Positions 57,659 to 64,000 of a stretch of 64,000 nucleotides of DNA are shown piece by piece. The position numbers were made by a program, and so were the translations under genes. How positions within the stretch are numbered: the first letter of the stretch is position 1; every line of letters begins with the position of its first letter. Source of the stretch: Candidatus Alcyoniella australis (GTDB lineage: Bacteria; Lernaellota; Lernaellaia; JAVCCG01; Alcyoniellaceae). The stretch lies in assembly GCA_030765605.1 (NCBI GenBank), contig JAVCCG010000017.1:60522-124521 (forward strand). Reading direction: 5' to 3'. The notes below the pieces were generated by a model that saw only the letters and a program-made list of their open reading frames with translations, was not told the DNA's origin and did no database searches.

Positions 57659-57758
57659 TATCGCGCATTATACATGTTAATCTTGCGTCCTCAGTTCCCA
57701 GGGCCACTTGTTTGATCGGCTTGGGTCGATGTATTACCATTCCCGCTGGAAACAAGGC

Positions 57759-59216
57759 ATGTACCCTCGAAGTTACAACTACTCGCTATTGCTCGTATTC
57801 GTGGCACTGGCGCTGCTTGCGACCACGGCCGTATCTGCCGACCAGGGGTTTTTCTCGGTCGAGCAGCGCGACGGCCGCTGGTGGTTCATCGATCCTGACG
57901 GCGAGATCTTCATCTCCACCGGCGTCAACCTGATCAACCCCGGCGGGCACTACGCTCCGGCCCTGGGTTACAGCCCGTACCAGCGCAACATCATCGAGCT
58001 TTACGGCTCGGAGCAGGCCTGGGCCGCGGTGACCCTGGAGCGCATGGAGCAGTGGGGCCTGAACACGTTGGGCGGCTGGAGCAAGGCCGCGCTGTTTCCG
58101 GATACGCCCTACACCAACGTGCTCTACCTCTCCGGCGCCAACTGGGAAAGCGGCGTTGTGCCCGACTACTTCTCCGAGGAGTTTCTCGACCGCGTGGAGC
58201 AGATCTGCTCGAGCACCGTGGCTGCTGGGGCCGACGATCCGCTGCTGCTGGGTTGGTTCATCGACAATGAGATGCGCTGGGGCGCTGATTGGCGCGTGCT
58301 GCGCGACCTGTTCGCCGACTACTATGCCTTTGATCAGGACGCGCCGGGCAAGGCCGCGCTGGTGGAGTTTCTGCGCGGGCGCTACAACAACGAGATCGAG
58401 GCTTTCAACGCCGCCTGGGGCACGCGGCACGCGAGCTTTGACGCGCTGTATGGCGAGACCCGCACCAGCGCCATGCCCGCCAATCAGGCCCAGGCCGCGG
58501 ACCGCGAAGCGTTCCTGGCGCTGCTCGCCGAGCAGTTTTTCAGTACGGTGGAGCAGGGGATCCGCGAGTACGATCAGCAGCATCTGATCCTCGGTTCGCG
58601 CCTGGTCTCGTGGGTCACACCGCGGGTGGTGCTCGAGGCTGCGACGCGGCACTGCGACGTGCTTTCGATCAATCACTACCGCGTCTGGCCGACCGTCGCG
58701 GACCTGCTGCGCACCCTGCAGCGCGAGCTGAACTACGTGGGCGTGGACGACGAATCGACCCTCTCCGAGTACTTTGACGAGGCGGGCCTGCCGATCTTGG
58801 TCAGCGAGTTTTCGATGCGCGGCATGGACGCGGGCCTGCCCAACACCTGGCCGCCCAACGTGCTGTTCATCACCGCCGATACCCAGCAGCAGCGCGCTTA
58901 CCTGTTCGAGCAGATGGCGCGCACCTGGCTCGAGGGCGGGTACGTGATCGGCTATCACTGGTTCGACTGGATGGACGAGCCGGTCTCCGGCCGCTTTGAC
59001 GGCGAGAACTCCAACTTCGGCCTGGTCACCGAGCTGGACGAGCCCTACGAGCTGCTGACCGCCACCATGGCCGCGGTCAACGCCACGGCCTACGACTGGG
59101 AGCCGCCCGCACCCGACGACGACGATGATGTGGCCGACGACGATGATGACGACGACAGCGGTGACGACGATGTGGCAGGCGATGACGACGACGACGATTC
59201 GGGGTGCTGCGGGTAA
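57759..59216 (+). CDS. Secreted glycoside hydrolase (clan A-like) with Asp-rich CCG tail
   Basis: About 485 residues from the ATG at 57759 (start of the signal peptide MYPRSYNYSLLLVFVALALLATTAVSA; ATG 57729 and TTG 57708 are in frame). A small strand region (RDGRWWFIDPDGEIFISTGV) leads into a TIM-barrel like those of beta-agarase and GH42/GH50-type enzymes. Likely acid/base is Glu in FIDNEMRWG (about 171) and nucleophile Glu in ILVSEFSMRG (about 350). The last 35 residues are almost all Asp and end SGCCG, like the S15-like protein at 11560. Substrate unknown. It diverges from the hydrolase pair. Confidence 0.78.
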   Translation: MYPRSYNYSLLLVFVALALLATTAVSADQGFFSVEQRDGRWWFIDPDGEIFISTGVNLINPGGHYAPALGYSPYQRNIIELYGSEQAWAAVTLERMEQWGLNTLGGWSKAALFPDTPYTNVLYLSGANWESGVVPDYFSEEFLDRVEQICSSTVAAGADDPLLLGWFIDNEMRWGADWRVLRDLFADYYAFDQDAPGKAALVEFLRGRYNNEIEAFNAAWGTRHASFDALYGETRTSAMPANQAQAADREAFLALLAEQFFSTVEQGIREYDQQHLILGSRLVSWVTPRVVLEAATRHCDVLSINHYRVWPTVADLLRTLQRELNYVGVDDESTLSEYFDEAGLPILVSEFSMRGMDAGLPNTWPPNVLFITADTQQQRAYLFEQMARTWLEGGYVIGYHWFDWMDEPVSGRFDGENSNFGLVTELDEPYELLTATMAAVNATAYDWEPPAPDDDDDVADDDDDDDSGDDDVAGDDDDDDSGCCG

Positions 59217-59828
59217 ACGCCGCTGATCGTAAATCATGTGGTTTTTCAAGCCGAGTAGGGCGCTTTAGTAAGAAATTACTTTACATCTGTGATTTGCCTA
59301 AAAATCGATGATTAATGTTGTTAATCAAGTGGTTGAAGGCTATTGCATAATATATTGCATGAGGGTTTGCATACGAATTGTGATTTCAAATCACAGATTT
59401 CGTATAGGTTACGAAGCGCGTATAGTTGTTGATATTACTTGGTAATCGCGATTTGGCTCCATACGATGTTCATATAATGTTTTTCCCTGCCGCGTAAGGT
59501 CTTGATTAATCAGGGTAATCTTGAAACCGCACGCATACGATAATCTTTCGAAAAAAACCGCGATTTCGCTGTAATTCCGCCTAAGTACGATAGGGCTTAG
59601 TTGATCGCATAGGTTCTGTTTTTGCAGGTCTGTAAGTTGCTGAATCTAATGGGAAATAATCGCATGGAAAATTTAGCAAAACATTATGTCAACTACACTC
59701 CTAGCCCCGTAGTTACTCCAACCACCATGGTCTATTAAGTTGTTAAAGAGCACCTTTATATTTTACCAGGGGGCGGCGCTGTGTGTCAAATGTTATTAGA
59801 CAAGGCTGGTGAAATTTGGCGTTATAAC
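59217..59828. other. AT-rich gene-free stretch with phased TTGCAT repeats and a long palindrome
   Basis: Base composition drops sharply here. Three TTGCAT hexamers lie at 59343, 59355 and 59367, exactly 12 bp apart, followed by a palindrome: ATACGAA (59371-59377), TGTGATTT / AAATCACA around one C (59379-59395), TTCGTAT (59399-59405). This looks like a binding-site cluster. A 29-codon frame at 59649-59738 has no ribosome site and is not called. Nothing else is recognisable. Confidence 0.6.
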
Positions 59829-60607
59829 GTAGATTCTTCGCTTCGCTCAGAATGACAAACGGCGGACGATGTGCAGCGTTATATCGCAATGATATCATAG
59901 GTAAACCGTCATCCTGAGTCCCTTGGACGAAGGATCTACGTGCGCACGTGGAATTTGTTGTGAATTGTCGCTTGGTGGTTGCAGGACGTGGATTCTTCAC
60001 TTCGTTCAGAATGACAGCCCGCGCGCGACTTACAGCGTTATATCGTGTTGATATCGTACGCCATTTGTCATCCTGAGGCCCAGGGCCGAAGGATCTACGT
60101 GCGCACGGTGGATTTGTCTATAATGGACGATTGGTGGTTGTAGAAAGTAGATTCTTCACTTCGTTCAGGGTGACAGCCCGCGCGCGACTGATAGCGTTAT
60201 ATAGCAATGATATCAATCGACAAGCTGTCATCCTGAGTCCCTTGGCCGAAGGATCTACGTGCGCACGTGTAATTTGTTGTGAATTGGCGCTTGGTGGTTG
60301 TAGGACGTAGATTCTTCACTTCGTTCAGAATGACAGTTTGCGGGCGACTGACAGCGTTATATCGCATTGATATCATACGATAAATCGTCATCCTGAGTCC
60401 CTTGGACGAAGGATCTACGTGCGCACGTGGAATTTGTCTATAATTGGCGCAGAGTGGTTGTAGGGCGTAGATTCTTCACTTCGTTCAGAATGACAGCCCG
60501 CGCGCGACTGACAGCGTTATATACCATTGATATCAAACGATAAACCGTCATCCTGAGGCCCTGGGCCGAAGGATCTACGTACGGATGGTGAATTTGTTGT
60601 GAACTGG
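59829..60607. repeat. Tandem array of five ~160-bp palindrome-bearing repeats
   Basis: GCGTTATAT recurs at 59876, 60035, 60194, 60354 and 60514, giving a period of 159-160 bp. Each unit has a left arm TCATCCTGAG...CGAAGGATCTACGT and, after about 45 bases, its inverted counterpart ACGTAGATTCTTC...CAGAATGACA, so each can form a long imperfect hairpin. Units differ at scattered bases. The last unit stops near 60607, beside the STAND gene, and appears to resume at about 63023. No spacers of CRISPR type are present. Confidence 0.9.
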
Positions 60608-60618
60608 CGTAAAACGCC

Positions 60619-62805
60619 CTACACCTTGCCGCGCAGACGGTCGAGGTTGCGGCGCGCGATCTTGATCTCGGGCTTGGCGCCGATGCGCTCGAAGATCTCC
60701 AGGGCCTGCTGCATAAGCTCAATGGCTTGCGGGATGTCGCCCTGTTCCTCGTGGACCGAGCCGATCTGGTGGAGGTCAATAGCCACACCAGGCAGATCGC
60801 CAATTTCTTTTCTAATAGAAAGACTAAGCTCGTGTTGTTTTAAAGATTCAGTCAATGAACCCTGATCCATGTAGACAATACCGATTTGGCTAATAACGGC
60901 CGCCTGCTCCTTTTTCGCGCCCAACTCATCGAATATCTCTTGCGCCTGCTGGTATTGCTCCAGGGCGGCGGCCAAATCGCCGCGCACTTGGTTAACTACT
61001 CCAATATTATGTAAAGTTTGGGCGATGCCCGCTTTATCTCCTAGTTCTTTCTTGATCTCGAGGCTCTGCTGGTATTGCTCCAGGGCCGCAGTGTAATCAC
61101 CTCTTGCACGATGGATCATGCCGATCTGGTGGAGGGCCATACCAACTCCTGCCTTGTCGTGGATCTCGCGCTTGATTTTGATGCTCTGCTGGTATTGCTC
61201 CAGGGCGGCGTCCAAATCGCCGCGATTCTGATGGATCATGCCAATCTGGTGGAGGACGGCGGCTGTATTCCGTTGATCTGATGCTGCTTTCAAAATATCT
61301 AAGCTCTTAAAATATAATGCCAATGCTTCTATATACTGCCCTGTTTGCTGATAGAGAATACCAAGATTTAATAATGCAACGCCCCCTTCTTTCCCCAAGC
61401 TGCGCGCGCCGCGGACCAGGTCGGGAAGCATCTGCTGGACCGAGACCAGCCAATCTGTGGGCACGATGCCCTGCTTTTGTGCGATGTAATCCGAGAGCAT
61501 ATCCGCATAGGCCCCGAGGAGCTGAAGCTGTTGTGCCTTGGCCTCGGGTTCGAGCTTGCGTTGCAAGGTCTGGCGGATCAGGGAGTGGAAGGCGTAGGTT
61601 TTAACAGCGGGATAGCGGGCAACAGGTCCGTGTTCCAGCAGGCTACGCTGGTGCAATGAGAAAAGCAGTTTGTTGGCATATTCGGTCTGAAGCTGGTCGT
61701 CCTCTTTAAACTCAGCCAAGAACTCCCCGGCCTCGGCCACGAACTCGCCCTTGAAAACCGAACAGGCCCGCAGCATGCGTAGCTCGTCCGGCGGCAGGTT
61801 GCGCAGGCTGAGATCGAGTGACTCGTCAAGGCTGCGCTGGTTCTGTTCCTCGGTCTCGACCCTCGCCTGGGGAAGCAGGTCCAGCACCTGGTCCACTGCC
61901 TTCTGGGCATCAAGAGGCGACTTGGAGAGAAAACCACCGATCAGCCTGCACGACAACGGATGGTCGGCCAGCTTGGCCGCAATGCTGTCCATCTGCTCGT
62001 CGCTGTATTCCTGCTGGCGATCACCCAGGGCGGAGCAGAGGATGTCGATGGCGGTCTGCCTTTCAGGACTTACGACCTTGATTGTCTTTTCATCATCCAG
62101 ACCGACCGGATGTCTGCGCGAGGTGAACATCAGCACGGTGCTCTTGCCGATGCGCGAGAGGAAATCCTTCAGGGCGATTGCGGCCTGGTCCTTGTTGTCA
62201 ATTGCATGCAGCACGGTCTCAAAGTTGTCCAGGATCAGCAGGCGGCGGCCATTAGATAAGTTGTTCAACACCTCTGATTTAAGCTCGTCCCCGGATAGCT
62301 TCTCGATGGCATCCTTGCCCAGGAGCCGTTTGCCGATCTGGTTGAGGAAATTTTGCAGGGTTGTGTCGGTCTTGAAGCTGAAGCCCCAGACAGCGTCGAA
62401 GCGGTCCTTGACCCGCTCGGCCGCCTTGCACGCGAGCACGGACTTGCCGATGCCGCCCATGCCCAGCAGGGTGAGCACGCGGGTGCCCTGAGCAATTTCA
62501 TCGGCTATTTGCCTGATTTCCTGTCGCCGACCATGGAAAGTCGAAGGTGTGTAAATTGAGGAAAGGTCTATATCAGTAGTTGCTTTAACTTCGCCTTCTT
62601 CTTCCGGCAAGGCATTGTCTTTCGTCCCCTCCGGCACGGTTGTATGGCGATAAAGGAATCGTAGAAGAATAATGGTTGCTACAATTAGCGCCCCTGATAT
62701 TAAATAGCTATCTAGCCATTGATGAACGAAAAAGACCAGAGCGAGACAAGCGACCAATAGGGCAAAAAACATAATCGAATCATTTCGAGACCAGCCCTTA
62801 AACAC
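60619..62805 (-). CDS. Membrane-anchored STAND (NB-ARC/NACHT-like) ATPase with six TPRs
   Basis: 728 residues. Two membrane helices at about 11-29 and 34-52 are followed by a short linker and a STAND ATPase: P-loop LLGMGGIGKS (115-122), Walker B LLILDNFE (Asp193), sensor LMFTSRR, then a winged-helix region (about 330-450). Residues about 490-715 are six TPRs of exactly 40 residues with near-identical cores (ALEQYQQSLEIKKELGDKAG). STAND proteins switch on by nucleotide exchange after ligand binding to the repeats. Some guard against phage; others regulate transcription. Here the only effector candidate is the membrane pair, suggesting a membrane-acting response. AT-richer than core genes and embedded in repeats, so probably acquired. 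Confidence 0.88.
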   Translation of the reverse strand: MFKGWSRNDSIMFFALLVACLALVFFVHQWLDSYLISGALIVATIILLRFLYRHTTVPEGTKDNALPEEEGEVKATTDIDLSSIYTPSTFHGRRQEIRQIADEIAQGTRVLTLLGMGGIGKSVLACKAAERVKDRFDAVWGFSFKTDTTLQNFLNQIGKRLLGKDAIEKLSGDELKSEVLNNLSNGRRLLILDNFETVLHAIDNKDQAAIALKDFLSRIGKSTVLMFTSRRHPVGLDDEKTIKVVSPERQTAIDILCSALGDRQQEYSDEQMDSIAAKLADHPLSCRLIGGFLSKSPLDAQKAVDQVLDLLPQARVETEEQNQRSLDESLDLSLRNLPPDELRMLRACSVFKGEFVAEAGEFLAEFKEDDQLQTEYANKLLFSLHQRSLLEHGPVARYPAVKTYAFHSLIRQTLQRKLEPEAKAQQLQLLGAYADMLSDYIAQKQGIVPTDWLVSVQQMLPDLVRGARSLGKEGGVALLNLGILYQQTGQYIEALALYFKSLDILKAASDQRNTAAVLHQIGMIHQNRGDLDAALEQYQQSIKIKREIHDKAGVGMALHQIGMIHRARGDYTAALEQYQQSLEIKKELGDKAGIAQTLHNIGVVNQVRGDLAAALEQYQQAQEIFDELGAKKEQAAVISQIGIVYMDQGSLTESLKQHELSLSIRKEIGDLPGVAIDLHQIGSVHEEQGDIPQAIELMQQALEIFERIGAKPEIKIARRNLDRLRGKV

Positions 62806-62887
62806 AACACCCCTCCAGACTTTCCAATTGTCATAATATACATTCCCCGTATGGTCAAGTCATTCTGTGGGAAAGCAAAAGGTTTTC

Positions 62888-62986
62888 CGGGGACAGTATT
62901 AGGATCTCCAGGGCCGTTATTTAGATTTTGGTGACAAGAATAATGCGTTACTAGGGATCGCTCTAAATTGACAGATACTGTCCCCG
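62888..62986. repeat. Short inverted-repeat element (about 100 bp)
   Basis: CGGGGACAGTAT at 62888-62899 is repeated inverted as ATACTGTCCCCG at 62975-62986, a perfect 12-bp match separated by 75 bp. It lies in the gap upstream of the STAND gene. The form is that of a miniature inverted-repeat element; no transposase is present. The rest of 62806-63022 shows only AT-rich sequence that should hold the STAND promoter. Confidence 0.7.
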
Positions 62987-63022
62987 AATCCGAGGACAAG
63001 CAGGCGGGAGTCGGTGCTGATA

Positions 63023-63240
63023 CGTGCGCGGTGTGGCAATAGGAAGTAGATTCTTCACTTCGTTCAGAATGACGTACTGCGGACGACTTACGGCGTTATA
63101 TATCGTTGATATCGAACGATAATATGTCATCCCGAACTCGTTTCGGGATCTCTATTGACCGAGATGCTGAAACAAGTCCAGCATGACAAAAAGACCGGGC
63201 CGAAGGATCTACGTGCGGATGGTGAATTTGGTGTGAATTG
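63023..63240. repeat. Further copy of the 160-bp repeat, with a second palindrome replacing part of it
   Basis: From about 63023 the sequence matches the right half of a 160-bp unit (GTAGATTCTTCACTTCG, then GCGTTATAT at 63093), in the same orientation as the main array. Its next left arm is broken. TGTCATCCCGAACTCG at 63125 to CATGACA at 63187 forms a different hairpin (arms of about 28 bases), after which the family end CCGAAGGATCTACGT resumes. Between 63241 and 63465 nothing is recognised apart from the upstream region of the last gene. Confidence 0.75.
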
Positions 63241-63465
63241 GCTGACAATAATTAGGTATGGTGACCCCCTAACTCCCAGTTTTTGGGGTTCACGTCACTC
63301 AGGGCGCCTGCTTGCTTCTCGCTATTGTTGGGCAAACGTGCGAAGATTCTATTGCACCGAGATAATCAGAGTTCCGTCCTTTTTTTGTCTCAAAAATCCT
63401 TGTATGTGGAGATTTGTGTTTTTGGCCAAGACGGACCGCCGAATGCGGTACAGGACGGGATTTTC

Positions 63466-64000
63466 ATGCTGAAACTAGGAGTAATCGGAACATCCAAAAA
63501 GGAAAACGAGAGGCGCGTACCTCTCCATCCGGATCATTTGTCGCGTATCCCAGAGAATGTTCGCCGGCAACTGATATTCGAACAGGGCTATGGGGAACCG
63601 TTCGGGATATCGGATTCAGACCTTGCGTCTCAGGTGGGCGGCATCGCAACACGTAGCGAGCTCTTGGCCGACCTGGGAGTGGTTGTCCTCCCCAAGCCAA
63701 AGGTGGAAGACCTCAAGACCCTCCGAAAAGGCGGCATCCTTTGGGGGTGGACACATTGCGTACAGCAGCGAGCTTTGACTCAGGTGGCGATCGAGCGAAA
63801 GCAGACTCTCATTGCGTTCGAGGAGATGTTCGTCTGGGGGCCTGATGGGCACGTCGGCCTCCACACCTTCTACAAGAATAATGAGTTCGCCGGCTATTGT
63901 GGTGTGCTGCATGCTCTTCAATTGAAGGGGATCGACGGGAATTATGGCGACCAGCGCAAGACGATCATCGTCAGCTTTGGTGCGGTAAGTAGGGGGGCTA
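63466..64000 (+). CDS. Alanine dehydrogenase / N5-(carboxyethyl)ornithine synthase-like protein (cut by window edge)
   Basis: The frame opens at an ATG at 63466 with GGGA 6 bases upstream and is open to the window end (178 codons). It starts MLKLGVIGTSKKENERRVPL and contains GYGEPFGIS, ILWGWTHCVQQ, EFAGYCGVLHAL and KTIIVSFGAVSRGA. The last phrase corresponds to the start of the NAD(P)-binding Rossmann part. This order fits the AlaDH/PNT superfamily and most closely carboxyethylornithine synthase-type enzymes, which make or split opine-like amino acids using NADPH. Substrate cannot be settled from the N-terminal half. Composition is closer to 50 percent GC than the core genes. Confidence 0.8.
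   Translation, partial: MLKLGVIGTSKKENERRVPLHPDHLSRIPENVRRQLIFEQGYGEPFGISDSDLASQVGGIATRSELLADLGVVVLPKPKVEDLKTLRKGGILWGWTHCVQQRALTQVAIERKQTLIAFEEMFVWGPDGHVGLHTFYKNNEFAGYCGVLHALQLKGIDGNYGDQRKTIIVSFGAVSRGA

Follow-up and report, generated by a model that had tools for sequence, protein, structure and literature searches.

Anti-phage STAND ATPases such as Avs and bNACHT combine a C-terminal repeat sensor with an N-terminal effector position, and STAND-type proteins also include signaling or transcription-linked regulators such as MalT and AfsR. What identifies many defense islands is an integrase, a prophage, or a conserved gene at their flank. Integrons place a constant site beside exchangeable cargo and carry palindromic repeats beside the 3′ ends of open reading frames. 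Among conflict systems, the combination of an AP-ATPase with TPRs at its C-terminus is an established architecture (PMC7159879, PMC8195603).

The locus described here lies in a window of 64,000 nucleotides (the whole stretch of DNA analyzed) on contig C17 of the Candidatus Alcyoniella australis assembly, which comprises 4.29 Mb in 157 contigs and belongs to a phylum represented by 7 genomes in the collection; other C numbers denote contigs of the same assembly. On balance, and with a good deal of reserve, we favor a reading in which a membrane-tethered STAND protein of defense type is one cargo among at least 17 islands, each headed by the same noncoding leader, with exchange between them through the leader core.

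The STAND-TPR gene and its paralogs

The gene (60619–62805, minus strand, GTG start) encodes a protein of 728 amino acids and was delimited from its open reading frame, Pfam matches, hydrophobicity, and a structure model. An NB-ARC domain occupies residues 95–334 (Pfam E 1.4e-16; 60.9 bits against a cut-off of 23.5), TPRs follow at about residues 476–710 (TPR_12, E 7.7e-46), and two hydrophobic helices precede them at residues 10–28 and 33–51, bearing out a preliminary description of this DNA as encoding a two-helix, membrane-anchored STAND ATPase with TPRs. Walker A (GMGGIGKS) and Walker B (LLILDNFE) are invariant in five paralogs except for F/Y in the latter, and an NB-ARC domain with Walker motifs joined to C-terminal sensor repeats is what characterizes the AP-ATPase/NB-ARC type. 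The predicted model (mean pLDDT 78, pTM 0.50) is confident in the ATPase core and TPR superhelix and of low confidence at the N-terminus and in the pre-TPR region; in PDB fold comparisons the STAND-TPR structure 6mfv ranks first, ahead of TPR superhelices and Apaf-1. PADLOC returned generic TPR models and a weak PDC-S39 match, with no system-specific model matching the protein.

Four further family members were found in the assembly, at C23, C142, C114, and C111, with identities to the window gene of 75% (best segment), 53%, 44%, and 55%, respectively, the last being truncated by a contig end; three of them (C23, C142, and C114) adjoin the same repeat units as the window gene. A hydrophobic N-terminal segment is present in all five paralogs, two such segments before the ATPase being confined to the window copy, and in 3 of the 79 nearest relatives with the LGMGGIGK motif. 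The window copy (W) and C23 are 72–100% alike at alignment columns 201–480 and much less so on either side, and C142 and C114 are 88–98% alike C-terminally and about 30–45% in parts of the ATPase region. Judged from these alignments, the paralogs are recombinant mosaics, a pattern compatible with gene conversion or with recombination of the kind seen in conflict genes.

The product of the STAND gene is probably a defense or cell-suicide ATPase, and the gene would be one of the cargoes of an island family dispersed over the genome. In the mechanism proposed, the trigger would be a partner or invader protein recognized by the TPR superhelix, upon which the NB-ARC ATPase would oligomerize; the clustered N-terminal membrane helices, as effector or anchor, would then disturb the membrane or draw the complex to it, and the outcome would be an abortive, defense-type response. 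The repeat array and the leader would concern the housing and moving of the gene, the mechanism of the protein being independent of both. A signaling or transcription-linked regulator with no defense role is the reading toward which the best named-family matches point, FxSxx_TPR and AfsR among other TPR and STAND regulators, with every score well short of the cut-off; that role is unlikely, given that a Pfam search found no DNA-binding domain in the protein, that the membrane segment occurs in every paralog, and that defense systems occupy sister loci.

Upstream of the gene, a conserved block GTATGGTCAAGTYATTCTG (62849–62867, plus strand) is common to C23, C142, and C111 and, read by eye on the minus strand, offers a possible −35 region. 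A 97-bp element with the ends GGGGACAGTAT...ATACTGTCCCC (about 62889–62985, no strand assigned) sits in the same upstream region and, by alignment with C142 and C23, is absent from the paralogous loci. This is the small inverted-repeat-type element of the preliminary description, seen again by reading; an inverted-repeat search over 62806–63300 at the settings used gave none, and the ends of the element therefore rest on that reading.

The unit array and its junctions

Five units of about 145 bp with palindromic arms, separated by 15-bp linkers, form an array with a period of 160 bp at 59827–60609 (plus strand), supported by a tandem-repeat call, alignment, and hairpin folds: U1 (59827–59970), U2 (59986–60129), U3 (60145–60289), U4 (60305–60449), and U5 (60465–60609). 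The units fold modestly better than shuffled sequences (z −1.0 to −2.6), so that the array may conceivably be a terminator-like RNA; they constitute a second repeat family accompanying the STAND genes. ToxI-like type III toxin–antitoxin repeats were considered and provisionally set aside, the array lying mainly 3′ of the gene and its units being much longer.

The STAND gene lies 9 bp beyond U5. On its other side, a block beginning GGCAGGCGGGAGTCGGTGCT (62995–63043, plus strand) is common to C17, C23, and C142 and runs at each into another unit, which is partial at C23; the block ends in a linker-like sequence (CGGTGTGGCAATAGG, compared with CTTGGTGGTTGCAGG in the array). In the window the unit reached is U6 (about 63044–63242, plus strand), which is complete and, minus a nested palindromic insertion, 83–88% identical to U1–U5. 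The nested repeat (about 63126–63193) is of another kind, GTCATCCCGAACTCG...CAGCATGACAAAAAG. A right-end sequence, TGACAATAATTAGGTATGGTGACCCC (63243–63270, plus strand), is common to copies of the unit lacking the gene at C95, C151, and C80, and the rightmost gene of the window (63466–64000, plus strand; Pfam AlaDh_PNT_N, E 1.2e-11) belongs to the alanine dehydrogenase/PNT N-terminal family and continues past the window end.

The left junction between array and gene, GGCG followed directly by TAAAACG or TGAAACG, recurs at C23, C142, and C114, where the array stops at the same unit position and enters the 3′ end of the STAND gene via the same sequence. At C95, C151, and C80 the units terminate instead in a different common sequence, GACAATAATTAGGTATGGTGTCCCC. 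Those at C95 and C151 resemble empty sites; since they are located at different loci, they do not amount to proof of an insertion event.

The preliminary description took the gene for a single acquired cassette inside one repeat unit, and named separate complete flanking units as grounds for abandoning that placement. Its 160-bp-period array and single 728-amino-acid gene were confirmed, and so was its restored period: when joined, the flanks align with earlier periods at 82–89% identity, because the array register is kept. The placement itself is literally contradicted, U5 and U6 both being complete, and a one-off insertion is at odds with the occurrence of the same left junction at three paralogous loci and of the upstream block at two. 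A single cassette splitting a unit is therefore very improbable; an acquired cassette of defense type is supported by the low GC content (54% for the gene against 64% for the window), the paralogs beside repeats, and the defense genes at sister leaders. The STAND gene thus breaks the array between two units without dividing either, and its pairing with the array recurs elsewhere in the assembly.

Of the unit, the arm motif was all that the other genomes of the phylum yielded. Two class relatives carry scattered copies of the left arm by itself (about 27 bp), which there also occurs in tandem with a 39-bp step (G001:C8:7559-7702). A leucine-rich-repeat gene with repeats more than 80% identical as DNA seems to span the end of C80 and the start of C134 and is followed by a partial unit (L064:8051-9197, L103:1-411).

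The leader and its variable cargo

Left of the array lies a noncoding leader of 610 bp (59217–59826, plus strand), which was absent from the preliminary description and is the most informative part of the locus. It has a GC content of 40% against 64% for the window and occurs in at least 17 places of the genome (about 20 recurrences, of which 17 are alignable copies); the number is a lower bound and some cargo is unseen, because several contigs come to an end within the leader. In the window, the stop codon of a lipoprotein-like gene oriented toward the leader (57708–59216, plus strand; called as an open reading frame) abuts it directly; the product has a weak glycoside hydrolase 42 match (Pfam GH42, E 7.8e-5) and ends C-terminally in a run of Asp and SGCCG. 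All 17 alignable copies start within about 100 bp, and mostly within 40 bp, of the stop codon of an inward-pointing gene, a count that rests on mechanical calls of open reading frames and includes C155 with a gene tail only.

Several leaders are immediately preceded by Asp-run lipoprotein-like genes ending in SGCCG, ECCG, or GCCS, at the window, C93, C142, C146, and C155 (L089, L059, L096, L097), the gene at C155 being reduced to its last codons. The leaders at L093 (C85) and L099 (C109) follow paralogous genes (65% identical DNA), each past an intrinsic-terminator-like sequence. Left ends of leaders carry a GTCAAGTAATACTTTAC-like sequence (L064 near 5459, L099 near 245, L094 near 1143), on the opposite strand a possible promoter aimed back at the preceding gene.

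Three parts can be distinguished in the leader, all given on the plus strand. The left arm (59217–59366) is divergent between copies, with a mean pairwise distance of 0.45; the core (59367–59666) is homogeneous, at a mean pairwise distance of 0.10 among 10 copies and about 90% identity between copies; and the right arm (59667–59801; mean distance 0.23) ends sharply at GTGTGTCAAAT, a boundary common to the copies. The left boundary is blurred, and target-site duplications of the kind that mark a transposon or MITE were sought by eye only. The distances for the left arm show no correlation with those for the right (Mantel r 0.008, p 0.49). The left arm of the window leader is 85% identical to C93 and 40% to C54, and its right arm is 93% identical to C54, 71% to C93, and 70% to C23, so that by sequence comparison the window leader is a C93/C54 hybrid. 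A uniform core between diverse, uncorrelated arms is what recombination through the core would produce, and recombination within a homogenized core seems the best explanation of it, purifying selection on a protein-binding core combined with independent cargo capture being the weaker alternative. Ten hexamers occur at least three times in the core, compared with a mean of 3.6 in shuffled sequences, of which the maximum was also 10; these may be candidate binding sites.

If leader, array, and STAND gene had been copied together several times from one ancestral block and had then diverged with no exchange, the junctions common to C17, C142, and C23 on both sides of the STAND gene would be accounted for. 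Such segmental duplication is nonetheless improbable, as leader and cargo histories conflict: the right arm in the window is nearest to that of C54, where the cargo is of TIR/SEFIR type, rather than that of C23, the leader end at C142 is nearest to those of C151 and C95, and other cargo lies behind many leaders.

The leader was rejected as a structured RNA (covariation term +2.45, z 0.42 and −1.51, no Rfam family) and as a gene (52/46/53 variable sites by phase, open frames mostly short). It was absent from the plasmids, viral contigs, GTDB genomes, and six other genomes of the phylum that were searched, the two pattern searches demanding an exact 32-base match.

Beyond the right end of the leader the cargo differs by locus. 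STAND-TPR genes follow at C17, C23, and C142, IetA and IetS at C93, a TIR/SEFIR-FGE protein (bSEFIR) at C54, and at C14 a single run of a type III restriction subunit, a PDC-S13/DinD-like gene, and a methylase-like gene, the last assigned by eye. The cargo at C54 and C14 has a GC content of 41–44% and 51–53%, respectively, compared with 61–66% for flanking genes. Among the leaders whose cargo can be seen, about half lack a recognized defense gene, and defense hits were absent from 10 left-hand neighbor sequences, one of them only a fragment. With families chosen after looking, defense genes lie to the right of 6 of 12 leaders and to the left of 0 of 10 (p 0.012), or 3 of 9 against 0 of 10 (p 0.087) once the STAND loci are left out. 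Of the six NB-ARC loci, three lie no more than 5 kb past a leader, as does the sole TIR_2 gene, and such stretches make up about 1.4% of the genome; the nominal probability of 1.3e-6 overstates the case, because the families were picked after looking and the paralogs are not independent. Enrichment of defense genes beside leaders is likely, if unproven.

In this reading each island opens with a leader of about 0.6 kb immediately behind a chromosomal gene's stop codon and continues with variable cargo beyond the leader's right end, and the homogeneous core is probably where crossovers allow different loci to trade cargo and leader arms. In its most specific form, offered tentatively, this would make the core (roughly 300–435 bp, at least 17 loci) a cargo socket swapping STAND-TPR, IetAS, TIR/SEFIR, and restriction–modification genes with no dedicated integrase. 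Searches of the 157-contig assembly that covered tyrosine recombinases found no such integrase for the leader; two tyrosine recombinases are present, both in Xer-like settings (one beside hslV/hslU, one beside an amidase), together with one Y1 transposase, and no common motif was found at the far ends of the islands. An IS3-like pair is situated near the C85 leader. An integron was rejected, the two Xer-like enzymes being the only tyrosine recombinases and no integron integrase being found in searches for tyrosine recombinases in general. A recombinase may act on the leader in trans; the proposal that needs the fewest assumptions is homologous recombination from one leader core to another.

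It is somewhat doubtful that leader and units are instead unrelated, nonautonomous families of REP/MITE-like kind in tolerant, low-GC intergenic sites 3′ of genes, with no exchange, the link to STAND genes reflecting gene duplication and shared tolerance of regions that also accept acquired genes. Leader and units do separate at some loci (C114 has units and the gene with no leader nearby, and C93, C54, C14, and C85 have a leader and no units), class relatives have scattered arm motifs without the rest of the unit, and MITE-like ends are common around the locus. Such an origin does not, however, readily explain the lack of correlation between arms around a uniform core, the placement of 17 of 17 leaders behind inward-pointing genes, or the identical gene/array junction at C17, C23, C142, and C114.

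Comparison with described systems

For exchange through the leader core, which we continue to favor, the significance lies in one noncoding sequence that marks many loci and appears to predict the positions of immune-type genes in a sparsely sequenced phylum. If the core mediates exchange, immune genes could be shuffled without a recombinase of their own, and the leader could serve as bait for finding new defense genes; if the socket reading is true, this genome would hold a shufflable set of defense loci. The five unclassified membrane STAND-TPR paralogs are immediate candidates.

Like integrons, the islands show a constant site by exchangeable cargo and palindromic repeats near 3′ ends of genes; unlike integrons, they have their constant site at many separate loci, and no integron integrase was found. 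The STAND protein shares with Avs and bNACHT its ATPase class, C-terminal repeat sensor, and N-terminal effector position, but matches no PADLOC Avs or NACHT model and has a membrane segment as its possible effector. The structure 6mfv is the best fold match across ATPase and TPRs, yet at 14% identity and a TM-score of 0.32 normalized by the query, and the membrane segment is additional here. With AP-ATPase (NB-ARC) conflict STANDs the protein has the order of NB-ARC and then TPRs in common, whereas a short N-terminal membrane segment replaces their TIR or protease domain and their partner genes were not seen adjoining the STAND gene (PMC7159879, PMC8195603). A limited literature search, in itself weak evidence of novelty, found no described dispersed element beside defense genes. 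The defense hotspots of phages and their satellites resemble the islands in having variable defense cargo beside constant sequence (PMC9122126) but differ in that here a single noncoding sequence extends over at least 17 chromosomal loci, with no phage or integrase recognized nearby. The presence of the immune-receptor-like gene at one of these loci, and of known anti-virus genes at several of the others, suggests a swappable-cargo arrangement for bacterial immunity, which we matched to no described system.
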